Made by a program: the position numbers and the translations under genes
Shown here: positions 9,906-48,116 of the stretch, piece by piece
How positions within the stretch are numbered: the stretch's first letter is position 1
Layout of the letters: every line of letters begins with the position of its first letter
The notes under the pieces: model-generated
What the model was told of the DNA's origin: nothing
Seen by the model: only the letters and a program-made list of their open reading frames with translations
Database searches by the model: none
IMG/VR virus record: IMGVR_UViG_3300025108_000066
Coordinates: 1-53,970 of that record
Length of the DNA: 53,970 nucleotides
Strand: one strand, 5' to 3'
From: a virus

Positions 9906-12900
9906 TTACATATCATATGCTTGTATTAGTTTATCTATATCTGGACGAGACTTTTTAGTTGCAAACTTTTTAAACCTTTCAGCAGCTGGTAACTTCCAAG
10001 CATCATACATTCTATTAGCCGAGGCTTTCCAATCAGATAAATAAAACTCACTGTTTCTATGCGTTCTATTATGAGCTCTAACATCTTTTTCAATTCTTCT
10101 CATCTCAGCTCTGTCTCCTGAGATTCTTGCTTTAACGTATGCTTCAGAAAACTTAATCTTAATTGATTTAACATAGTCACCTGTTTGTTTAGTCATACGT
10201 ATAATATCGTTTTGGTAAGACGCACTAGCTGGATAGAAGTTTAATGCTCTAAAAAATATCTCTTTAAAGTGAACGTCTTTGTCTAGTACTTTACCCTGCT
10301 TGTTAGTAATAACACCATCATCATAATAAGTATATGCGTCTGCTATAGCCCTTATACCACCGTAAGGTTGTGACCTTAAGACATCTACAAATCTTGTTGT
10401 GTCAGCTTTTAAACCAACTTTACCTGCAGTGTAGTTTCCAAATAAAGTTACAGCAGCTACAGCTTGTTCTCCAGCTGCATACACAGGACCTAAGAAGTTT
10501 GTAACCTCTTGCTCAAAGCTAGAACCTGCTTTAGCCATACCAGTTAGTGGTATTAAATCACCAAAGCCTAGTCTTGTAGACATAGTAGCACCTGTAACCT
10601 TATCAAGAACACCTCTCATTACTAATGGTGATGTACCTGGGGCTACTTCGTCTATAAACATAGTTAATTCTTTTTCTACCGTACCTATTTTAATACCAAA
10701 CATTTGAACTAATGTGTCTATTAAATCCATAATGTCTTCTCCAAAAGGTAATCCTTTCATACCTGATAGGAAGAACAGTAACATTAAGAAATATATTCTT
10801 TCGTTTCTACCTAAGTTTTTCATAAGCTCAATACTAATCATTACGAATTGTTTATACATCATTAATGAATTAAGTAATGGACCTCTAGATATCTTAGGTC
10901 TGTTAAACATAGAGTACTCACCTTGAGATGTGTTTACTGCTACCTCAGCAAACTTTGCAGCTTCACCTTCAATTTCTTTATTTAACTCTGCTATTCTTTC
11001 TGGAGTTATATTTTTTACGTTAAACTCTTTTGCGTTTGCTGCTATAAGTTTTTCTTTTTGTAATCTATAAGCTGCTAGGAAAGTAGCCCTTCTGTTAAGT
11101 TGCTCTGTATAAGAGAACAACGACATCCATTTCTTAAGCATACCAGATGTGGTATTTGTTAAACCACCTCTTGCTGTACCTACCAAGGCATTGTACTGAG
11201 CCGCTTGAAGCACCCCATCAGATGTTGCTCTGTGTACAGCTTGTGCTTCATCAGGACTTATATTGTATTGTATTTGAAGTTGTTCGGCTAATTCTGGGTC
11301 AGCGGTATACTCACCTGTCTCAGGGTCAAAGCCAGCTACCTTATTCATCCAGTCTAGGTTTGCTAAACTTTGTTCAGCTCCTGCTTCTGTTAGACCTAAT
11401 CTTGTTCTTACACCATCACTCATCTGTCTAGCAGCCTTTTGCATGTGATAAGCTGACGCAGACATACCAAACCCACCGCCGTATCCAGTCTTAGGATTAT
11501 AAGTTGCAAGATACGGTATACTATGAGTAACCATAGACATTGAATTAATTATAGCTGTTGCAACAGAGCCACCTAATTGTGAAGACACAGCTAGTACTTT
11601 AAGGTTCTGTCCTGTTTTAGAATTTTCTAATATGTCTTCTGTTGAGTCTACAATGTTCTCACCACTAGCGTAGTAACCTAATATATCCTTAGCTTGTTGT
11701 TTGTAGTCTTCACCTCTACCTTCAGGTTTAACTTGTTTAGGTGTTCTTATATTAGCAAGTGGTCCTGTCATTTCATATATAGTAAATTCATCTGCAGTAT
11801 TTTCTGTAGTACCTGCACTGTATCTGTACATGTTAGCGTATGCGTCATAATTTGCTCTAGCTACTTGTTTTTCTTGTTCGTTACCAAATTTTTCTACTCT
11901 ATCTAAAGTTTCTTTTAATTTATTTAGTTTATTTCTATCGCCTAACCATTGGTCTTCACTAGCTAAGACAGTATTAAGTTTGTGTTCAAAATAAGTTTTA
12001 CCTGCTAGATGAGATTGTGCTCGTAAGAACATAGCTTGGTTTCTAACTACTTCTTTATTCCAACCAGCTTTACCAACACGAGGTAGCTTTTGTCTAGCTG
12101 CTGACCCTGTATCTGTAAGACCTTTAATAATCTTATCTCTATCATTAACAGAAATATTTATTTGTAAGTCATCAGCAATTCTTAGGAAGGCAGATAAGTT
12201 TTGGTCAAGCGACATTAAAGATGCTGTTCTAGCTACACTTCTTGATGCTTCTAAAGTAACTTCAATCTCTTGCCCTGATTTATCTCTAACAACAAATGGA
12301 TTTTTACCAAAAGTTTCATTAACTTGTTTTTGTATTTCTCTAGCATCTTGTTCAGTCTCAGCTTGAAAGTATGGCATAGCATTTTTATATTGTTGGTCAA
12401 GTTTTATTCTGTTTCTATCTTTATCAAAAGCTATTGTCTCTACTTGATACTTACCACGTCTTACAAACTGTACGTAACCTGTCATTAGAGTACGTTTAGA
12501 ATTAAACTCTATTTGTTTAGTAGCTTCTTCTAAAGCAAATAAACTTTTAATAGTATTAGTTATAGTATTAGCTTCAGCCTCTCCTTCTTTACCTTTTTTA
12601 AATATAGCGTTTAGTTCACTTAAACCCTGTATAATTCTTCTATATTCATTATCATTAGGGAATCTAAATATAGGTTGAGCCCCTGGTTCTGGTGTCTTAA
12701 ATTCATCATTCCAATCCTCGAACCTATAGTTTTCTTTTACACCTACACCTGCGTTACCATCTTGCCAGTCTTCTACTTTTAATGGTTGAAATAAAGCACG
12801 ATTAACTTCTCTTATAAACAACGCAGATTTACGTTTAGCTTCAGATGTGTAATTTGTTTGTTTATCACCAGTCGCATCTACTTGACGTATTTGCCTATAT

Positions 12901-15900
12901 TTTTCCATGATTAATTCAAACGTTTCTCTAGCTCCAGTTAAGTTTGAATCTTGACCTATAGCTTTTAAAAAGTTATTTATTGCATCTTGTCTTTCAAACG
13001 TAGTTGATTCAAGACTTGACTCAAATACATCTACGGCTGACTTATTAATGGCAGCACGTATCTCTGAATACATTTTGTAAACTCTAGGGCTAATAGATTC
13101 TGGTTTAAACTTTCTTGATTCAAGTTTACCTGTATCATCTTGTAGTATAGATATATCATATGGTATACCTTCTAAAAATTCTTCTATAGATACTAAGCCC
13201 ATGTCTCCTAATTCTTTTGCAGCTTCACGATTCACTGCTTGCCCGCCTCCAACTTCTTGTCTTAAGCTAGGTGCTTTTGCAACGGTTGAATCTTCACCAT
13301 TTTGTTTAGCCCTGAATAAGGCTGCGTAACTTAGTAAGTCGCTAACTTGATTAAGTTCTTCTTCAGTAGCACCTACAGTCCCTGGTTCAGTACCACTTTT
13401 TTTGCTGTCTATTAAATCGTTATAGTCTTTTGTAGTTGTAACAACTATATCATCTTCATATTTTCTGTTAAATATATTTGGTCTAGTAGAGAACTGAGTT
13501 AATGTTTCGTAAGTTCTTTCTAAGCTTTTTATTTTCTTAGCTTGCATACCAAAAATATTAAAGATATTTCTTAATCCTTCACTACGATTAGATATATTGC
13601 CTAATGTTTGTAGATATTCTAGTGCTGACCCAATAGCTTTTGGTGCATCTAATCCCAGTTTGTTTTTTACTACTTCCTTGAAGTTGTTAAATGAGCCGAA
13701 AGTACTGTTTGCAGTAATACCAAACATAGCAAAAATAGAAGCTGGTAAGCTGGTGTTCACCTGTTCTGTATAGAATCTAGTTTGTGTAGCTCTGTCGTAT
13801 TCATCTTGCATGTTACTTACAAGTTGTTTGACGTTAAAGTAACTACCACCACCTGTGCGTAAGTTCCTACGTGATTGACTTAGTATGTATCTTGATAAGT
13901 CATCATCAAATTTAATACCTATTTTATTTAAGAAGTTCTTTACAGCGAACCACATTCTTTGTATTGCTGATACATCTAAGGTAGCCGCTGCGTTAGCCAT
14001 AGCTTCTTCAATGGCTATGTATTTATCCATACCATTTTTTATATGTATATCTGCAACAGCTTTTATATGACCTTCGCTGTTATATAAATCTTCTAGTACT
14101 GCATTTAGTTTACCGTCAGGAACGAATGCTCGTAGCCCAAAGTGACCTAACGTCTCGTGAGCTACTATAAATTTTAGTTGCTCTTCAGTTTTAATGTTGT
14201 TAGCAAATACAACAATCTCATCTCCTAGTGCAAAGGCTGCAAAGTTTGTTGTATCAAAGTCTCCTTGTTGCCTGCCTGCAACTGCTCTTTCGTATAGCTC
14301 AGGAAACTTAGATTCTAGCTCTGCTTTATCTTTAACTACTGTAGCTTTAGGTTTTAGTTTAAGTTTACCAAGAGCTTTATTTACTATAGCTCTGACTCTA
14401 AGTATAGGCACTGGATTTTTAATAACAGAACCATCGAGTCTAAAGAACATTGTGTCATCTGGATTATCATCTACACCTTCTAACATATTATCTATATCTT
14501 TATTAGATAAGTCTTGTTTAGTTAGGAACTCCTGACCTTTTGGGTCTACTGGTTCCATTAGTTTTTCTAAATCTTTTAAGTATTTTCTTTTATAAGCTGT
14601 AGCTTCTTTCATATTACCAGCCATAAAAGTCTGCTCGATTGTTAACTCATCAGCCTCAGCTTTTGCTAAAGTTTTTACACTATAGCCTTCTGCATTATCA
14701 GCTTCTACTATTGCGTATTCAATTAGTTTTTTTTCTCCTTTCTTTAACTTATCTTTTGCAATAACCTCTGCTTCTTGGGCTTTTCTAAACGCAATCACGT
14801 CTGCCTGTTCTTTTCGTTCTTGTTCTGATAACTTACTATCTAACACTTCGTTGAGTTCTGCTACATTTTCGTTAGTGAATGCTAGTCCCTCCCCCTTTTT
14901 TAAGTTAGCTGCTTTATCTTTCTCTTCTGTTTCAATACGAGTTTTTCTTTGCTCTAAATTTTTCTTTGTTATAGGTTTAAATATAGCCATACCTTCAGCT
15001 GATTTAGTTTTATAAAGTATTAGTTTGCCTTTATCTGTAAAGTAATCGCTAAGTAAATCACCCTCTTTATTTATTCCATAGTTTTTATCTTCGTCTGACA
15101 GCTTTGCAAATCCGTTTTCTATTTTGTTCTTAGGAACACTTCTATTTGGTTGTGTTATTTTTGTAGTACCAAGGGCTTCTGTTATCTGATTCTTAATTAA
15201 ATTATGAACTTGAATAGCTGTGTAATCTGGCTGAGTATCAATAGTTATTTTACTAAGTGCACTTTGGTCAGTTTCTAATGGTTGAGCTGGACCAGAAAGG
15301 ACAGGTAATTTTTTCTTTTGTCTCTGGTCTATTATAGATTGGTATCTACCTCTTCTTTTAGTCCATGCAATAGCTTCTTGTATTCTAAGTTCTGAACCAC
15401 TTTGTATACCAGGTAAACCTGTAGCCTCTCCTACTTCAACTAGTTCAGTTGTAAGTCTATCGTATATTACATCGTCTAATACAGCTGCTTCGTTATCAGT
15501 ATAAAATCCAGTTGTTCCAAAATAATTATTTAAAAAGTTACGGGCTTTTGTAACTGCTCTTTCGTTAAACGTAATATCTCCATAGTCTTTACTTCGTTTA
15601 TCTAACCACCCTATATCTACTAACTCAGATAGTAAATCTTGTTTAGTGTCGTTATCTAAAATAGCTGCTTCGTACTGTGCTATACGCATGTCAGTATATA
15701 CAGCTGGAGTTACACCTACATCTTTAAAATCTTGCTCAGTCATATGTAAAAACATATTTCTAATTTCTTCTGTTTTTATTGCTGTGCTTTCTTTTACTGC
15801 TGTACTTATAGAATCACTTATTGGTTTAGGTACAGTATCAATAAGAGCAGAACCAGGTATCAACGGTTTTATATCGTCCCAAGCTTCTTGTGTATTTTTA

Positions 15901-18900
15901 TATTTTTTCTTAAAGTCTTTTGGTTTTGCTCTGGCTCTAGTTAACTTATCTACTTTTTGTTGACGTAAAAATTTATCAACCGCACTTACTTTATCTTGCC
16001 CCGTGCTATCGGCTGGTTTCTCAACAGGTTTTTCGTCAGCTTTCCGAACGGATTTTTCTTTTCCCTTAACTTGTAGTTTAGCCTTTCCTTTCTTCTTTTC
16101 TCCGACAGACTCTTTAGTCCCTTTGATGTTGGTAGTGTCAGCATCTGTTTCTTGCTTGTCTCTTGTAGTAGTTGTTCTGCTATCTCTGGTTTGTTTTCCT
16201 TCAACCACTTCAGCTGTTTCTTGCTTCGTATTGGCATCTTGTGTATCTCCTTCTATTTGAAATTGTGTCATAGCTTTTCTAGCATCATCGCCAAACGATA
16301 CTATTAAACCACCAGCATCTTGTACAAATCTTTCGTGTTGTTCTTTCGTACCTTCAAGCTGTACAAAGTTAACTCCGCCAGAAGGCATAGGTGTAAATGA
16401 TTCTCTAAGTTCTGCGTTAGCTATTTCAGCTTGAACATCTCTGTTATTAAAACTTTCACTTAATTGGTAAAGAATTTTACCGCCTACAATTTCACCGCCT
16501 ACAATTTCACTAGGTGTTGTTTCTGTCTCTTGATTGTCTTTAAATAAGTTTGTCTCTAAAGGAGAATAAAATTCATCTCCCTTTTTAGCAACTTTAAATC
16601 CTCTTCTCTTAAATGCTTTTTGTGCTCCAGCTACACTTTCAAGTACAGTATATCTTTTTCCTTGTGATTCTCTTATTTTTTCTATTTCTTTAAATATTTT
16701 TTCAACAGCTTTTGAATTTACACCACCTACCATCTCTACACTAATAGCATTATCTTCAATACTATATTGTGCTGCTGCTAGTGGAATACCTTTATCGTCT
16801 TCTATTACAATACTATCATTTGGAACAGCTCCTGTTTTAAATGCATCTAAAACAATAGGTGCCATCATACGTAAAGTAGCAGATAGTTTATCTTGTGTTT
16901 GTACATCTCCTCTTATTACAACTGACGCACTAGAAGTTTTGTTGCTTGGTTTTAAATACTCTAAAGATATAGCTCCTTCTATTGCTGATTGCATTACCCC
17001 TGATGGCATATTTTGAGCAGTTATACCTGAAAAAATATTTCCTGGTCCTTGTGCCATAGAATTTATAGTTTCATTTACATTATTTACAAACACAGAATTT
17101 AAAGATTTAGCTACAATAAATGGTCCCGCATAATCTTCTACTTTAATTTTTTTAGCTTCTTGTTCTGCTCTAGCTCTATCTAAAATTTTTTGTTGTTGAG
17201 CTCTTAATGCATTTATCTCTGTTGTATCTTCTGCTACTTCCTCACCTGCTTCTGTCCCTCGTTTTTCTACTCCTGTTCCTGTTGTTGCTACCAGTAAACT
17301 TAAGTACCTTTGTATTGCTTCGATATCAGCTACTACATTTCTATACTGTGCAGTGTTTATCTTACCGTCTTTCTCTAACTTAACTTTTGTTTGTATTTTT
17401 TTAGCTAATAATTTAGATAGTTCTTCTGTATTTGTTCTACCTGTTAAACCTTGGTCCATAGCTAGATAGCTGGCTATATTACGTCTTTTACCTTTATCTT
17501 TTGCACTAGATTTAAGTTCATATCTAGATAAAGCTGTTCTATCAAGAGTTGATATTTCTTCTAGCATAGTATTTAATTTATCTGCTGAAGTTAATTTTGC
17601 TTTACCTTTAGGTGTTGTAGTTGTAGTTGTTGCTTTTTTTAAATCTTGCTCAACATTTTTTATTTCTTTTTTAGTATTATTTTTAAGTATGTTAGCTATT
17701 GTTTCCTCTTCTTTTTTTCTATTCTGTTGTCGTATTTCTTTAATTTCAAAATACAAATCATCGCTAGTAATACCTATTTCTGTAGCGTTAGGACCACTAG
17801 GAAAAGCTGGAGAGTAAGAATTAAACTTAGCATCTGACATGGTAAGAAGTGAAGGATTCTGCAGAACAGTTTTAGTAGCATCTTCTGTTTTAGTAGTAGC
17901 TACTTCTTTATCTAATTTATTTAATAAATTAGTATTTTCTTTTTCTAAATCTTTAGTGTCTGATATAACTGCAATAGGAAAATCTCTAGTGCCTTTCTCT
18001 TTTAGTGTTTTCTTTCCCTCTTCTTCTACTATCTTAGTAGTTTCTTTTTCTAATTCTTTAGTGTCTTCACTATAAGCAGAAGCTGGTAGTTTCATTTGCT
18101 GACGTAACAGTGCATCCCTTCGTTCTTTTGCTCCAGTTATTTTTTCTTCACGACTTGGTTGTTCGTCTGTAAAATCTATTGGGTCATTAGGCTCAGTTCT
18201 AGAATTACTACGGTCTAATACATCTGAGCTAGGTTTAGAAAGTAAGTTAGCTGCAGCACCAATAGGACCACCAACAAAGAAACCTGCTGCAAACGAATTG
18301 ACTAATCTATTTTGTACTTGAGGGCTATCTAACTTTAACTGACCTGTGTTAGCTAGTATTAAACTTTCTTGTGCTACCTCTGTTGTACCTTCTAATGTAC
18401 CACCAACACCAAAACCTTTTAGAACTCTTGATGTTCGTCCACCTTGGTCAGTTCCTTCTAATAATGTTTTATTTATTTTCTTTGGCTTAACACTAAATAT
18501 TCTTGCAGCTAATAAAAACTCAGGTAGCATTTCCATTGCAGCATAAGGTATTGCAGTAAGAGCAGCAGACAGTCTATCGTCTTGACCCTCTTCTCTTTGT
18601 TCACCATATATATCACCAAGACCTATACCATAACTACTAGTTCCAATACCTAATGCTGTACCACCTTTTATAGCTTGGTCTCTAGCTGTTTGTGTAATTC
18701 GTCCTCGTACACCATCTCCTCCTAATAGTCCTTCTTTAGCTACAAGCTCATCAAGTTGAGTTTTAGTTGGTTTGCCTCTAAGTGTTTTAGCAACTCCTTT
18801 ACTATCAACAATAAATATATTAGGTGTTTTTATACTAGCAACACCAGCTAAACTTGATGCTTCACGAATTAATTTTCGCTCACCACCAGTAAGTGATTTT

Positions 18901-19718
18901 TTATCTTTTTCGTATTTCTTAGCTGCTTTTATTACAGCTTGTTTATAACGCTCTTTACCTAAAACACCAGATACTGCATAGCCTACAGCACTAAGCGGAT
19001 TTGCACCTGTTACTGCTCCTACGCCTCCACCTATCAGGGCAGCTGCTATGGATTCTAATAAGTTTGGACCTTGTTGTGCTAGGTTAGCTACGAACCAATC
19101 TATAGCATCATGCGATTCGTTTGCATCTCCGTCTTGTATGTAACCAGATTTTATCTTAGTAAATTCTCTTTGGAACGGCTCGTTCTTTTCTATCTCTCTG
19201 ATAGCTTCATCAACAAGACCTTGCCCATATTTTTCAGCTCCAAAGAATTGAGAGGCTCTACCATATAATAGTTTTAGATTACTACCACCTATGTCAAAGT
19301 TTTCTGCAGCTAGTCTTCCTGCTTGTGGATTTTTAATTCCTTTAATGTATGAACCAAATTCTTTAGGACCAACTCGTGTCCAGTCTCTTGCTATATCTAA
19401 AGAAGGTTTTAGTGGTCTGTCTCTAAGTTTTGCTACAGATTGTAATGCTGTCTTAGCGTCATCATCGTCAAACATCAAGCCGTTGACAAACATTTTTTTA
19501 GTGCTTGGGCTATAGAAAACTTGGGGAGTTTCATCAGGTGGCTCATAGCCAATAGCATCAGTTTGTGCTTGTAGACCTGCAAGAGTATTTAAATTACTTT
19601 GTGCTAACTCACCAGTGCTGGGTACATTGTCTATACTTTGAGAAACACTTTCGATACTTGGTATACTATCAGCAACACTCTCAATACTAGGGGTGTTTAA
19701 ACCTACACGTACTACCAT
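9906..19718 (-). CDS. Giant polyvalent/ejection protein with acetyltransferase-like and zincin-like domains
   Basis: 3,270 residues, 18% of the genome. It occupies the T7 gp16 / N4 virion-RNA-polymerase position at the end of the internal-protein operon, so it is probably packaged and ejected into the host. The N-terminal third has short hydrophobic Gly/Ala segments (near 220-260 and 470) and Thr- and Lys-rich linkers. Residues about 930-1050 look like a GNAT acetyltransferase domain. At 1854-1859 lies HETLGH, an HExxGH-type zincin motif seen in phage polyvalent proteins. The C-terminal region (about 2,550-3,050) resembles polyvalent-protein regions and has a strongly hydrophobic helix near 2,970. 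No T7-type RNA polymerase motif was recognised. AGAGG precedes the ATG. Confidence 0.85.
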   Translation of the reverse strand: MVVRVGLNTPSIESVADSIPSIESVSQSIDNVPSTGELAQSNLNTLAGLQAQTDAIGYEPPDETPQVFYSPSTKKMFVNGLMFDDDDAKTALQSVAKLRDRPLKPSLDIARDWTRVGPKEFGSYIKGIKNPQAGRLAAENFDIGGSNLKLLYGRASQFFGAEKYGQGLVDEAIREIEKNEPFQREFTKIKSGYIQDGDANESHDAIDWFVANLAQQGPNLLESIAAALIGGGVGAVTGANPLSAVGYAVSGVLGKERYKQAVIKAAKKYEKDKKSLTGGERKLIREASSLAGVASIKTPNIFIVDSKGVAKTLRGKPTKTQLDELVAKEGLLGGDGVRGRITQTARDQAIKGGTALGIGTSSYGIGLGDIYGEQREEGQDDRLSAALTAIPYAAMEMLPEFLLAARIFSVKPKKINKTLLEGTDQGGRTSRVLKGFGVGGTLEGTTEVAQESLILANTGQLKLDSPQVQNRLVNSFAAGFFVGGPIGAAANLLSKPSSDVLDRSNSRTEPNDPIDFTDEQPSREEKITGAKERRDALLRQQMKLPASAYSEDTKELEKETTKIVEEEGKKTLKEKGTRDFPIAVISDTKDLEKENTNLLNKLDKEVATTKTEDATKTVLQNPSLLTMSDAKFNSYSPAFPSGPNATEIGITSDDLYFEIKEIRQQNRKKEEETIANILKNNTKKEIKNVEQDLKKATTTTTTPKGKAKLTSADKLNTMLEEISTLDRTALSRYELKSSAKDKGKRRNIASYLAMDQGLTGRTNTEELSKLLAKKIQTKVKLEKDGKINTAQYRNVVADIEAIQRYLSLLVATTGTGVEKRGTEAGEEVAEDTTEINALRAQQQKILDRARAEQEAKKIKVEDYAGPFIVAKSLNSVFVNNVNETINSMAQGPGNIFSGITAQNMPSGVMQSAIEGAISLEYLKPSNKTSSASVVIRGDVQTQDKLSATLRMMAPIVLDAFKTGAVPNDSIVIEDDKGIPLAAAQYSIEDNAISVEMVGGVNSKAVEKIFKEIEKIRESQGKRYTVLESVAGAQKAFKRRGFKVAKKGDEFYSPLETNLFKDNQETETTPSEIVGGEIVGGKILYQLSESFNNRDVQAEIANAELRESFTPMPSGGVNFVQLEGTKEQHERFVQDAGGLIVSFGDDARKAMTQFQIEGDTQDANTKQETAEVVEGKQTRDSRTTTTRDKQETDADTTNIKGTKESVGEKKKGKAKLQVKGKEKSVRKADEKPVEKPADSTGQDKVSAVDKFLRQQKVDKLTRARAKPKDFKKKYKNTQEAWDDIKPLIPGSALIDTVPKPISDSISTAVKESTAIKTEEIRNMFLHMTEQDFKDVGVTPAVYTDMRIAQYEAAILDNDTKQDLLSELVDIGWLDKRSKDYGDITFNERAVTKARNFLNNYFGTTGFYTDNEAAVLDDVIYDRLTTELVEVGEATGLPGIQSGSELRIQEAIAWTKRRGRYQSIIDQRQKKKLPVLSGPAQPLETDQSALSKITIDTQPDYTAIQVHNLIKNQITEALGTTKITQPNRSVPKNKIENGFAKLSDEDKNYGINKEGDLLSDYFTDKGKLILYKTKSAEGMAIFKPITKKNLEQRKTRIETEEKDKAANLKKGEGLAFTNENVAELNEVLDSKLSEQERKEQADVIAFRKAQEAEVIAKDKLKKGEKKLIEYAIVEADNAEGYSVKTLAKAEADELTIEQTFMAGNMKEATAYKRKYLKDLEKLMEPVDPKGQEFLTKQDLSNKDIDNMLEGVDDNPDDTMFFRLDGSVIKNPVPILRVRAIVNKALGKLKLKPKATVVKDKAELESKFPELYERAVAGRQQGDFDTTNFAAFALGDEIVVFANNIKTEEQLKFIVAHETLGHFGLRAFVPDGKLNAVLEDLYNSEGHIKAVADIHIKNGMDKYIAIEEAMANAAATLDVSAIQRMWFAVKNFLNKIGIKFDDDLSRYILSQSRRNLRTGGGSYFNVKQLVSNMQDEYDRATQTRFYTEQVNTSLPASIFAMFGITANSTFGSFNNFKEVVKNKLGLDAPKAIGSALEYLQTLGNISNRSEGLRNIFNIFGMQAKKIKSLERTYETLTQFSTRPNIFNRKYEDDIVVTTTKDYNDLIDSKKSGTEPGTVGATEEELNQVSDLLSYAALFRAKQNGEDSTVAKAPSLRQEVGGGQAVNREAAKELGDMGLVSIEEFLEGIPYDISILQDDTGKLESRKFKPESISPRVYKMYSEIRAAINKSAVDVFESSLESTTFERQDAINNFLKAIGQDSNLTGARETFELIMEKYRQIRQVDATGDKQTNYTSEAKRKSALFIREVNRALFQPLKVEDWQDGNAGVGVKENYRFEDWNDEFKTPEPGAQPIFRFPNDNEYRRIIQGLSELNAIFKKGKEGEAEANTITNTIKSLFALEEATKQIEFNSKRTLMTGYVQFVRRGKYQVETIAFDKDRNRIKLDQQYKNAMPYFQAETEQDAREIQKQVNETFGKNPFVVRDKSGQEIEVTLEASRSVARTASLMSLDQNLSAFLRIADDLQINISVNDRDKIIKGLTDTGSAARQKLPRVGKAGWNKEVVRNQAMFLRAQSHLAGKTYFEHKLNTVLASEDQWLGDRNKLNKLKETLDRVEKFGNEQEKQVARANYDAYANMYRYSAGTTENTADEFTIYEMTGPLANIRTPKQVKPEGRGEDYKQQAKDILGYYASGENIVDSTEDILENSKTGQNLKVLAVSSQLGGSVATAIINSMSMVTHSIPYLATYNPKTGYGGGFGMSASAYHMQKAARQMSDGVRTRLGLTEAGAEQSLANLDWMNKVAGFDPETGEYTADPELAEQLQIQYNISPDEAQAVHRATSDGVLQAAQYNALVGTARGGLTNTTSGMLKKWMSLFSYTEQLNRRATFLAAYRLQKEKLIAANAKEFNVKNITPERIAELNKEIEGEAAKFAEVAVNTSQGEYSMFNRPKISRGPLLNSLMMYKQFVMISIELMKNLGRNERIYFLMLLFFLSGMKGLPFGEDIMDLIDTLVQMFGIKIGTVEKELTMFIDEVAPGTSPLVMRGVLDKVTGATMSTRLGFGDLIPLTGMAKAGSSFEQEVTNFLGPVYAAGEQAVAAVTLFGNYTAGKVGLKADTTRFVDVLRSQPYGGIRAIADAYTYYDDGVITNKQGKVLDKDVHFKEIFFRALNFYPASASYQNDIIRMTKQTGDYVKSIKIKFSEAYVKARISGDRAEMRRIEKDVRAHNRTHRNSEFYLSDWKASANRMYDAWKLPAAERFKKFATKKSRPDIDKLIQAYDM

Positions 19719-44949: not shown

Positions 44950-44958
44950 CAACCAAGT

Positions 44959-44980
44959 CCTCCTCCCGAAAGGGAGGGGG
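44959..44980 (+). other. GC-rich hairpin with GAAA tetraloop before a small gene
   Basis: A nine-pair stem (one G-U pair) closes on a GAAA tetraloop and is followed immediately by CAGGAG, the ribosome site of the 49-residue gene. It could be a transcript-stabilising or translation-control element rather than a terminator, because no T run follows. Confidence 0.6.
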
Positions 44981-44991
44981 CAGGAGTAAAA

Positions 44992-45141
44992 ATGAGTGTA
45001 TATAAACATATTAAAGTACATTACTTTGATAGAAACCAACCTAAAGTGAGAACATTTGATAATGCATTAGAAGCTAACTTGTTTATCAAGTTCCCACCAC
45101 AAGACATAAGAATAGTTAGCTGGATTCCACTATCTAACTAA
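44992..45141 (+). CDS. Hypothetical protein, 49 aa
   Basis: Starts after CAGGAG. The sequence includes YKHIKVHYFDRNQPK and TFDNALEANLFIKF, suggesting a small folded protein with beta and helix segments. It is the last gene of the first rightward unit, followed after 20 bases by a strong terminator. No family is recognised. Confidence 0.65.
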   Translation: MSVYKHIKVHYFDRNQPKVRTFDNALEANLFIKFPPQDIRIVSWIPLSN

Positions 45142-45161
45142 CTAGCCTACCTACCTACCTA

Positions 45162-45193
45162 CCCTCACTCAATCGAGTGGGGGTTTCTTTTTG
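45162..45193 (+). terminator. Rho-independent terminator of the first rightward unit
   Basis: A nine-pair stem (CCCTCACTC with GAGTGGGGG, one G-U), loop AATC, followed by TTTCTTTTT. It ends the transcript led by motif copy A. Four CCTA repeats precede it. Confidence 0.88.
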
Positions 45194-45196
45194 TCT

Positions 45197-45218
45197 ATCA
45201 AATCGTTTACGATTTGAT
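45197..45218. terminator. Second hairpin, possibly bidirectional terminator
   Basis: A perfect nine-pair stem ATCAAATCG/CGATTTGAT with a TTTA loop directly follows the T run of the first terminator. It may back up termination or protect the start of the structured stretch to its right. Confidence 0.6.
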
Positions 45219-45270
45219 TATATCATAACTTTACATAGATATCACTAACTTTACATACACATAGATATAT

Positions 45271-45304
45271 AATCAATAGGTTCTAGTAATCAATAGGTTC
45301 TAGA
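45271..45304. repeat. 17-bp direct tandem repeat
   Basis: AATCAATAGGTTCTAG occurs at 45,271-45,286 and again at 45,288-45,303, one base apart. The core CAATAGGTT recurs at 46,972-46,980, and GTTCTAGTAAT (45,280-45,290) recurs inverted at 46,949-46,959 in the second gene-free stretch, which links the two regions. Confidence 0.85.
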
Positions 45305-45502
45305 ATGTCGGAAGGTTAAAGTAGTATATATATATAAACCATTGGTCGGTAGGTTATGGCACGTATAATGCAACTATATAGACTATCTAGTTGTAACTTT
45401 ACGCAACTTTACATGTTCTAGATAGTAAAACCTTACACATGTAACCTTACATTCCCTTAGTTTACGCCATATATAGGGCATTATGCTATCCATAACTATC
45501 TA

Positions 45503-45620
45503 AACTATCTAGACTATCTAGTTATTTTAATATAATGCGTCACTAAGCGTTTACATCTAGCAATATACTAAATTTCGCAGCGATACATTACCCATAAAAA
45601 ACTAGATAAACTAGATAGTT
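45503..45620. repeat. 21-bp inverted repeat with CTAG-rich arms
   Basis: The arms are 45,503-45,523 (two CTATCTAG copies in a row) and 45,600-45,620, inverted with two mismatches, separated by 76 bases. Each arm contains direct repeats of its own, so several alternative pairings or protein sites are possible. Confidence 0.8.
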
Positions 45621-45710
45621 AATGCCAACTTGTTGATATATATAAAGTTTTACTATCTAGTTACACACCCATTAAGATAACTTTACATAGATAGTTATAT
45701 ACACAATGCC

Positions 45711-45751
45711 GAGCAGAAAAAAATTTTCGATGTGTCAAGGTTTTGGCATGG
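45711..45751 (+). promoter_or_regulatory. Bipartite motif, copy B
   Basis: GAGCAGAAA, 11 bases, TGTGTCA (45,711-45,737), then AGGTTTTGGCATGG. It shares GCC before and CATGG after with other copies. The next start codon is 76 bases downstream. The flanking ATGCC/GGCAT could close a hairpin around the whole motif in this copy. Confidence 0.6.
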
Positions 45752-45813
45752 CGAGGGATTTCCCCTTGTTATATATAATATTAACTATCGCCCTATGGGG
45801 CAGGATATAAACT

Positions 45814-46258: not shown

Positions 46259-46459
46259 ATGGCTAGATGTAGAGACTGTAATGTTATTATACAACAAGGT
46301 AGAGTATCACTAGGCTACGATACATGCCTAGTTTGTGGTGAGGTTGAGGCACGTAAGGTTAAGCATACTGTGGTGCCATTGCATAAGTCTAACTACATAG
46401 TAGTGAGCAATAAAGAGGACTTGAAAGGAATTAATAACAAAGGTGGTAAACATGACTGA
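46259..46459 (+). CDS. Small zinc-ribbon protein, 66 aa
   Basis: Starts at ATG 46,259 with GAGAGG upstream; an in-frame ATG at 46,244 is inside the ribosome-site region and less likely. Cys4-x2-Cys7 and Cys23-x2-Cys26 make a compact zinc ribbon. The rest is basic and ends GGKHD. Such short ribbons are common in phage early regions and may bind nucleic acid or a host protein. Its stop overlaps the next ATG by eight bases. Confidence 0.75.
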   Translation: MARCRDCNVIIQQGRVSLGYDTCLVCGEVEARKVKHTVVPLHKSNYIVVSNKEDLKGINNKGGKHD

Positions 46460-46667
46460 TGATATACAAGAGGTTACTGTACACATAGCAGTAATACAAA
46501 ATGGTACTGTGCATATGTATTGGAACACTAGATTCTATGTACATGATAGTGAGGGCGTATTAGATAAGGCATTAGAGTTTGTCAAAAGGCAAGGACACAA
46601 TCAAGAACAATGCAGTTGGGCAATAGTAGGTAGCCTTATTGAAAGGCATAATGAATATATGGGTTAA
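46452..46667 (+). CDS. Hypothetical protein, 71 aa
   Basis: The ATG at 46,452 has AAAGGTGG upstream; the GTG at 46,443 is less likely. The sequence has a beta start (EVTVHIAVIQNGTVHMYW) and helical rest (LDKALEFVKRQG). No family is recognised. It is the last gene before the second gene-free stretch, whose first stem begins at its stop codon. Confidence 0.68.
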   Translation: MTDDIQEVTVHIAVIQNGTVHMYWNTRFYVHDSEGVLDKALEFVKRQGHNQEQCSWAIVGSLIERHNEYMG

Positions 46668-47028
46668 CTTGTGATTATGAGACACAAGTGTGGGGTAGGT
46701 AGTGGCAAAGTAGGGTATAATAAATATACGGATTTAATTCCAAAATCCCACGCCTACCTACCTCTAATGAATATTTCTCAATGAGTAATTAGTACTCAAG
46801 CTTATTGGGAGCATAGATGTAAGCTAGCGTATACATCTATGTAGGGTAGATAGCTAGATGGTTGGTGATTCTTAGTCCATGAAAGCCAACATAAAGACTA
46901 CCAAGATGACTATGTATGGAGCAAAACTAGTCTATCTATCCTTAATGAATTACTAGAACGAAATCACCTAGCAATAGGTTGGAGATAGGTAACGCTGTAT
47001 CGTTCCAGCATGTAGGTTACTTATCTCT
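46667..47028 (+). ncRNA. Candidate large structured RNA
   Basis: No open frame is convincing, but the whole stretch can be read as a chain of helices. These are: ACTTGTG/CACAAGT (46,667-46,689); GGTAGGTAG/CTACCTACC (46,694-46,762) enclosing two adjoining hairpins (46,715-46,729 and 46,730-46,748); a bulged 12-pair helix (46,776-46,810); CATAGATGT/ACATCTATG (46,812-46,841); a 15-pair stem with two single bulges (46,843-46,943); ACCTA-GCAA-TAGGT with a GNRA loop (46,966-46,979); and a 13-pair plus 4-pair stem (46,981-47,028). G-U pairs occur in several helices, which favours RNA over a DNA site. The strand is inferred from neighbours. Confidence 0.6.
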
Positions 47029-47040
47029 AAGGACTATGCC

Positions 47041-47067
47041 GAGCAGAAATTTTTTTCGGTTGTGTCA
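47041..47067 (+). promoter_or_regulatory. Bipartite motif, copy C
   Basis: GAGCAGAAA, 11 bases, TGTGTCA, preceded by GCC. The start of the MoxR gene lies 59 bases further on, after a short CCCAC/GTGGG hairpin and an ATAGGAG ribosome site nearly the same as that after copy A. It leads the long accessory operon. Confidence 0.6.
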
Positions 47068-47126
47068 AAATCAAACAAGAATTTCCCACAATGTCGTGGG
47101 GATATAACAACACATAGGAGAAAACT

Positions 47127-48116
47127 ATGAGAGCGAAACTACTTATGCAAACCCTAAAGGACTTGTTTAAGATAAAGAGGACAGTAGCTATCGAGGGTAG
47201 CCCTGGGGGTGGTAAGACTACCATATGCCAACAGGTTGCCAAAGAGCTAGGTGTCGGATACGAAGAAGTGCATATGCCAACCATGTTGGTAGAGGACTTC
47301 GGTATTCCTATACCTCAGCCTGATGGCTCACTTAAATATTCCATACCACATTGGATACCCGTAGTGGGTAGCGACCACCCTGATACAGGTATATTGGTAC
47401 TTGATGACATGAATCAAGCTAGTGCTGACTTACAGAAAGTGGTAGCTAACATGTGTCAAGCAAGGAATGTACATGGCTATCAAATCAAAGAGGGGTGGCA
47501 GATTGTATCAACAGGTAACAAGGTGTCGGACAGAGCTGGTGCTAATCGTGTATTGTCTCACTTACGTAACAGGCATACTGTGTATGACTTAGAGACACAC
47601 GTTGATGATTGGTATGCATGGGCTATTGAACACAATGTAAAGCCTGAAGTCATCTCATTCATCAAGTTCAGAACGGACTTGTTGCATGACTTTGACCCAC
47701 AAAGAGAGTCTAACCCTACACCACGTTCATGGGTAGAGGGTGTGTCTAATGCAATAGGTGTCGTATCACCTGAGGCAGAGTATGAGACATTCAAAGGTGC
47801 TGTCGGTGAGGGTGCTAGTGCAGAGTTCACAGGGTTTGTGAAGATATATCGTAACCTACCTGATATGGAACAGGTCATTAAGAAACCACTTGAGGCTACT
47901 GTGCCTACTGACCCAGCTACATTGTATGCAATGTCTGGCAGTCTAGCTACGTACTCAACAGTGGATAACTTCAAGAATGTACTGACATATCTAGACAGGA
48001 TACCCCCTGAGTTTTCAGTACTGTCGGTATCGTATGCAGTCAAGAAGAATGTCGAGCTGATGAACACACCTGAGTTCACTAAGTGGGCAGTCGATAAGCA
48101 GAATGTAATTATATAA
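47127..48116 (+). CDS. MoxR-type AAA+ ATPase
   Basis: 329 residues. Walker A is GSPGGGKT (24-31) and Walker B ILVLDD (89-94). Sensor 1 is in VSTGN near residue 130, followed by NRVLSHLRNR with the arginine-finger region. This is the MoxR/AAA_5 branch, whose members act as chaperone-like remodelers with VWA-domain partners. The third gene in the same operon is a VWA protein, supporting a working pair. The target could be a phage or host complex; it is not visible in sequence. Confidence 0.9.
   Translation: MRAKLLMQTLKDLFKIKRTVAIEGSPGGGKTTICQQVAKELGVGYEEVHMPTMLVEDFGIPIPQPDGSLKYSIPHWIPVVGSDHPDTGILVLDDMNQASADLQKVVANMCQARNVHGYQIKEGWQIVSTGNKVSDRAGANRVLSHLRNRHTVYDLETHVDDWYAWAIEHNVKPEVISFIKFRTDLLHDFDPQRESNPTPRSWVEGVSNAIGVVSPEAEYETFKGAVGEGASAEFTGFVKIYRNLPDMEQVIKKPLEATVPTDPATLYAMSGSLATYSTVDNFKNVLTYLDRIPPEFSVLSVSYAVKKNVELMNTPEFTKWAVDKQNVII

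Follow-up and report, generated by a model that had tools for sequence, protein, structure and literature searches.

Arrays of exchangeable hairpin modules, selected as RNA, at a single site in marine phage genomes

Between a small gene and an ATPase gene in the virus record IMGVR_UViG_3300025108_000066 lies a stretch without genes (positions 46667-47028) that folds densely, and this raises the question of whether it is one large structured RNA, a leader of the gene that follows, or something of a different kind. An earlier note on the window, by which we mean the whole 53,970-nt stretch of DNA analysed, had taken it for a candidate new phage RNA of the size of GOLLD or ROOL. We find a series of separate hairpin modules, with single-stranded linkers of the UUAAUGAAUU type between them. 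On balance, the stretch is probably a copy of an array whose small structured RNAs are exchangeable and which marine phages carry at one site, either promoter-proximal or intercistronic, with the RNAs acting themselves.

A gene-free stretch made of separate hairpin modules

The predicted folding energy of 46667-47028 is -109.7 kcal/mol compared with -84.9 ± 6.2 for shuffled sequence (z = -3.98), and none of 100 shuffles reaches it, which bears out the dense folding that the earlier note had described. The full intergenic region (46668-47126) gives a z of -5.64 on the sense strand and -3.88 on the antisense strand relative to shuffled sequence, and a good antisense fold is expected for any hairpin array. 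In a scan of the + strand of the window in 362-nt segments at 120-nt steps with G+C correction, 46667-47028 ranks first of 448 (residual -3.4 sd). The stretch is also free of genes as had been claimed, with no ORF of at least 50 aa found on the + strand of 46668-47126, and no tRNA was found in the window. The strongest folding in the window is located elsewhere, in the gene-free region 44950-45813 (z = -7.65), of which 45160-45813 is AT-rich, has short repeats and palindromes (ACTATCTAGTT-type, tandem TAATCAATAGGTTCTAG, ATAACTTTACATAGATA) and folds on both strands; this region is a candidate replication origin or control region. The window also includes a 3270-aa ORF on the - strand (9906-19718).

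The array, all parts of which are given on the + strand, begins at the stop of an upstream 71-aa ORF of no known family (ATG at 46452, stop ending at 46667). An entry hairpin ACUUGUG/CACAAGU (46667-46689) appears in both the MFE and the centroid fold, and a similar ACTTGT..ACAAGT hairpin (family 18) opens four other arrays (L033, L038, L042 and L063). Next is the first frame hairpin, F1 (GGGGUAGGUAG/CUACCUACCUC, 46692-46764), whose frame is the GATAGATAG/CTATCTATC frame found elsewhere with double changes from A-U to G-C. It carries the cargo motif R1 (G-UGGCAAAGUAGG...CCCACGC-C, 46702-46754; covariance model match of 57.9 bits), an asymmetric internal loop on an arbitrary helix. The linker UCUAAUGAAUA (46763-46773), a variant of UUAAUGAAUU, leads to two bridge hairpins, UCUCAAUGAGU/GCUUAUUGGGA (46776-46810) and GCAUAGAUGUA/UACAUCUAUGU (46811-46842), which are the adjoining pair that had been placed in a junction. 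In L017, L056, L060 and L064 the first of these is about 89% identical and the second identical at 32/32 nucleotides, and a different frame hairpin follows there. In the window, the bridge is followed by frame hairpin F2 (46843-46942), whose 78-nt cargo is multi-branched, and then by the linker UUAAUGAAUU (46942-46951), which a pattern scan finds in array after array. The segment 46952-46979 is apparently a 3'-end remnant of a four-cysteine gene and ends in the hairpin ACCUA-GCAA-UAGGU (46966-46979), whose GCAA tetraloop (46971-46974) the earlier note had correctly located, as it had the last hairpin of 13 + 4 pairs (46981-47028). This last hairpin is vertically conserved beside the ATPase gene, being 100% paired with four double-changed pairs in five relatives.

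Between the array and the downstream + strand gene, which encodes an AAA/MoxR-type ATPase (phrog_1297, 47127-48116), there is a 36-nt element (47033-47068), a point against the explanation preferred here. The element (GCCGAGCAGAAA..TTTTCG..TGTGTCAA) has a second copy at 45703-45738 with 78% identity, both copies lying some 60-75 nt ahead of a gene start, and a similar sequence is found in L004. It is possibly a phage-specific promoter or a control site of the ATPase gene.

Rfam searches of the window, 13 related loci and single modules matched tRNA (in L007 and L041) as the sole family, leaving GOLLD, ROOL, HEARO and OLE unmatched at gathering score. Weak DABA-DC-AT, snoRNA and miRNA matches were rejected, their scores being far under gathering. 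BLAST of the region and of single modules against 50,697 phage records gave no match.

Frame helix and cargo motifs selected as RNA

The hairpins have a common frame, GGGATAGATAG...CTATCTATCC and then TTAATGAATT. The pattern of the 3' half was run against 2.9 million viral contigs, which are fragments, and, with the bias to close copies of any exact-pattern scan, it identified 55 loci with a matching 5' arm in nearly all; the frame hairpin GGGAUAGAUAG...CUAUCUAUCC with its linker thus recurs in about 55 marine phage contigs. In bacterial and archaeal genomes, 257 billion bases in all, a like scan returned three matches, none with the 5' arm and about the number expected by chance, and bacterial genomes were dismissed as carriers of the frame.

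At the two variable frame pairs, 54 distinct hairpins have A-U in 40 and 34 cases, G-U in 9 and 15, G-C in 5 and 5, and A.C in none. Because a G.U pair here would read A.C on the opposite strand, the folded strand is the coding strand, and the exchange among A-U, G-U and G-C with A.C never occurring shows that the frame is selected as RNA on the strand of the genes. This upholds the earlier argument that the G-U pairs favour an RNA. A second frame 'dialect', TGATCCCTGATCCAATG...CATTGGATCTGGGATCA, is present in the L161-L182 phages and carries the same R1 motif, and in L163 a divergent intergenic region holds a long leader, about 400 nt, that is rich in hairpins.

The cargos inside the frame are interchangeable, range from 15 to 110 nt and fall into recurrent families. 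Their conservation exceeds that of the frame, cargos in hairpins with differing frames are often identical, and cargos beside unrelated genes often agree base for base. L023, L039, L047 and L052 share the 51-nt cargo core at 46703-46753 without a difference, and L022 and L048 match the 78-nt F2 cargo at 77/78 positions, yet the flanking genes of the latter two are unrelated; most of these six contigs have few or no neighbour genes in common with the window. Some of the identity between cargos may be due to recent recombination instead of selection.

When sought alone, R1 (UGGCAAAGUAGG...CCCACGC) is found on top of some ten unrelated helices of other phages, with 8-10 complementary pairs in each, and it keeps a conserved asymmetric internal loop, UGGCAAAGUA/CAC. 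Across 20 distinct copies, 97.5% of cells pair and 81 cells are changed on both sides compared with 26.8 when shuffled. The covariation score is 0.729, as against 0.165 ± 0.026 shuffled and at most 0.20 when slid. The invariance of the core is partly by design because the core belonged to the search pattern, while the helix did not. A second motif, a three-way junction, serves as a bridge module in sister arrays and is absent from the window; copies with different closing helices are found beyond these arrays too, and the motif covaries, with 8 double-changed pairs and a score of 0.291 compared with 0.105. Its internal connector UUAAUGA has the sequence of the array linker, and a UGGU/ACCA pseudoknot in the module is possible. 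The results amount to at least two new covarying RNA families. Given this covariation, a tolerance of G.U that is confined to the gene strand and the lack of any Rfam family that reaches gathering score, the call of a candidate new phage RNA stands, and the likeness to GOLLD or ROOL falls away since the region consists of independent modules.

A covariance model of R1 also matches, weakly and with an E-value that is rough (17.9 bits, E 0.21), a divergent copy at 2124-2167 of the cultured Pelagibacter phage HTVC033P (MZ892993). The copy has a 5-bp complementary helix, sits in a leader without genes, immediately 3' of TTGACA-17-TATAAC, and is followed by a further GGGGGUAG...CUACCCC hairpin. The arrays of L197 and L204 include the three-way-junction module together with an HTVC033P-like TTTGGCAAAGTCGG variant of R1. 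As a tail protein of carrier L047 is nearest to pelagiphage proteins, SAR11-type hosts seem likely for at least some carriers.

Position of the arrays and exchange between phages

Frame hairpins alternate with bridge hairpins, most clearly in L042. Domain clustering produced 71 hairpin families in at least two contigs and in many different orders, a count that includes some near-duplicate contigs and some edge 'domains' that are coding sequence. A single array site is present in each of the 23 records that were searched over their full length (up to 57 kb), and the downstream gene has the same sense as the array in 44 of 44 cases. Arrays often end 14-26 nt before a start codon that is preceded by a Shine-Dalgarno sequence. 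In several phages, a TTGACA-17-type (sigma70-like) promoter is found directly 5' of the first module, and the same promoter is followed by different modules in different phages; no sigma70-like promoter was found upstream of the array in the window itself. Loci of the window type have the array between small early-region genes and the ATPase, while elsewhere it is a 5' leader. In L007, L041 and L151 a tRNA-Asn is a member of the array between the same linkers, with the tRNA-Asn(GTT) of L007 (3033-3106) and L041 (10126-10199) identical at 70/70 nucleotides. Some bridge hairpins that start with RCCTAGTG look like a decayed tRNA acceptor arm.

Relatives of the locus were traced via the downstream ATPase gene, three of them near-identical to the window and uninformative. 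Among the best 80 ATPase relatives, 12 are carriers, all of them close (86-100%) and counting the carrier L069/L004, which has the vertically conserved last hairpin and no linker match, and the other 68, at 62-69%, are without frame hairpins. The frame hairpins reappear in relatives at 49-57% ATPase identity and are also found in phages with a TerL about 39% identical or with no genes in common. To judge from these comparisons, the patchy distribution is one of horizontal sharing and not of descent. The locus is a modular array, and its parts have been exchanged between phages.

In L004, L005 and L007 (ATPase identity 86-88%), the same interval at the array site has a small gene for a protein of 149-155 aa (L004 3363-3830, L005 141-608, L007 3354-3803) with a four-cysteine C-terminal motif (CPVCG...CSKAC) and no Pfam match, besides which L005 and L007 have chains of other hairpins. 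The window's segment 46952-46979 aligns with the 3' end of this gene, which suggests that the gene was lost from the window. A target-site duplication GAA in L005 was considered and discarded, as recombination at the shared GAACGAGA explains it equally well.

Proposed role and comparison with known systems

R1 is followed by a MoxR ATPase gene in loci of the window type, and by various genes, most of them unannotated, in L047, L150, L152, L153 and L177. A riboswitch of one pathway needs a constant class of downstream gene and is therefore unlikely, as R1 precedes genes of different kinds. Given these varied neighbours and positions, activity independent of the neighbour is the simplest reading, either as small RNAs cut at the linkers or as generic cis elements of stability or transcription. 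We rank RNAs acting themselves first, mRNA stabilisers second and put-like elements third.

For the transcription, processing and function of the array, we infer the following course. The array would be transcribed together with its gene cluster, and its A/U-rich linkers would be cut by an RNase E-like activity to yield short stable RNAs. The linker's GAAUU would fit RNWUU, the RNase E cleavage consensus, which is that of the enterobacterial enzyme. Conserved frames and linkers would provide the short homologies where phage recombination swaps cargos. The RNAs would act in trans or on whichever transcript carries them, with a host or phage protein as the binding partner. Takeover or counter-defence would be the most likely setting, given that one and the same module is found ahead of many different genes. 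Antisense matches of 23 cargo and bridge sequences were looked for within a subset of the array loci, and there were none.

A different and rather unlikely explanation is that the arrays are generic stabilisers of mRNA leaders or intercistronic regions, in which a hairpin and an RNase E-type linker protect or process the message and the cargos are neutral passengers moved by recombination. Intergenic arrays on the sense strand that often end at a short distance from a Shine-Dalgarno-preceded start, hairpins directly after promoters, and the same modules before many different genes would all be accommodated. However, if the cargos were neutral, an asymmetric internal loop would not be expected to stay invariant through some ten helix replacements, nor a three-way junction to covary, and cargos that are more conserved than the frame also argue against it.

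It is improbable that the modules are cis-acting put-like elements, nascent RNAs that bind to RNA polymerase in early operons and thereby suppress its pausing or termination. The put RNA brings about antitermination by binding the zinc-binding domain of the RNA polymerase beta' subunit. The promoter-proximal position, one site per genome, the absence of gene specificity and an RNA-only motif with a conserved internal loop agree with such elements, and HK022 putL is located just downstream of PL (PMC9378689). In contrast, the 11-nt motif core has matches in HK022 only at chance level, no sequence similarity to putL or putR was found beyond chance, and put consists of two stems in about 70 nt and not of a shuffled array of dozens of families and tRNAs.

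Very little speaks for selfish DNA palindromes (MITE- or REP-like) spreading as DNA with no RNA role. Shared inverted termini around unrelated interiors, the patchy distribution and the array of L005, apparently inserted near the 3' end of a gene, resemble such elements, but a frame that tolerates G.U and never A.C, the fixed orientation to genes, the single site per genome and P1 helices wholly replaced with complementarity retained do not. REP/MITE-type dispersal at many sites and in both orientations was not found in the 23 whole records and 44 loci. A TIGR stem-loop or CRISPR-like guide array, suggested by a phage-borne stem-loop array with variable parts, is highly doubtful, as no Nop-domain Tas protein was found in the window or 14 related records (positive controls were found in four archaea) and the variable parts are shared structured modules in place of 8-12-nt spacers, which were not found in the arrays between box C/D-type repeats or stem-loops. 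A single conserved ornate RNA like GOLLD or ROOL has size and dense folding in its favour and is refuted by modules that occur singly, apart and in other orders with no Rfam match.

Beyond the proposal that the RNAs act themselves, we consider it possible, with less confidence, that marine phages share a pool of dozens of swappable small structured RNAs with one frame helix and one linker, each phage holding its own selection at one locus; the arrays would then be the RNA counterpart of gene-cassette arrays and serve against hosts or competing phages. Such a system would have unrelated phages trade RNA parts, not genes. No description of such arrays was found in the openly licensed PMC literature. 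HTVC033P is cultured, so the question is open to direct testing.

Among known systems, the T4 tRNA cluster has two further stable RNAs. Phage tRNA and stable-RNA clusters likewise have small structured RNAs in series at one site per genome, and a tRNA-Asn is a possible member here; unlike in those clusters, the majority of members are something other than tRNAs, a series of several tRNA genes was not found (none in the window, at most one tRNA-Asn per array), and the modules, which have a frame helix and linker in common, are exchanged between unrelated phages. REP/BIME, Correia/NEMIS and mitochondrial double-hairpin elements are also recurrent intergenic hairpins with shared ends, whereas the arrays have a single site, one orientation, exchangeable structured cargos and pairing selected as RNA. 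GOLLD and ROOL are phage-associated structured RNAs outside genes as well, but single large ones and not a modular chain. TIGR-Tas systems include stem-loop arrays that phages can carry (PMC12045711), in contrast to which the arrays here have neither Nop/Tas protein nor short spacers and are built of conserved structured RNAs. The put RNA is similarly a small structured RNA beside an early promoter and not bound to one gene (PMC9378689), yet it is a fixed two-stem element of unrelated sequence. Finally, the manA and wcaG motifs of marine cyanophages are structured RNAs in potential 5' UTRs (PMC2864571), single motifs tied to certain gene classes, whereas those described here are arrays that precede many genes.
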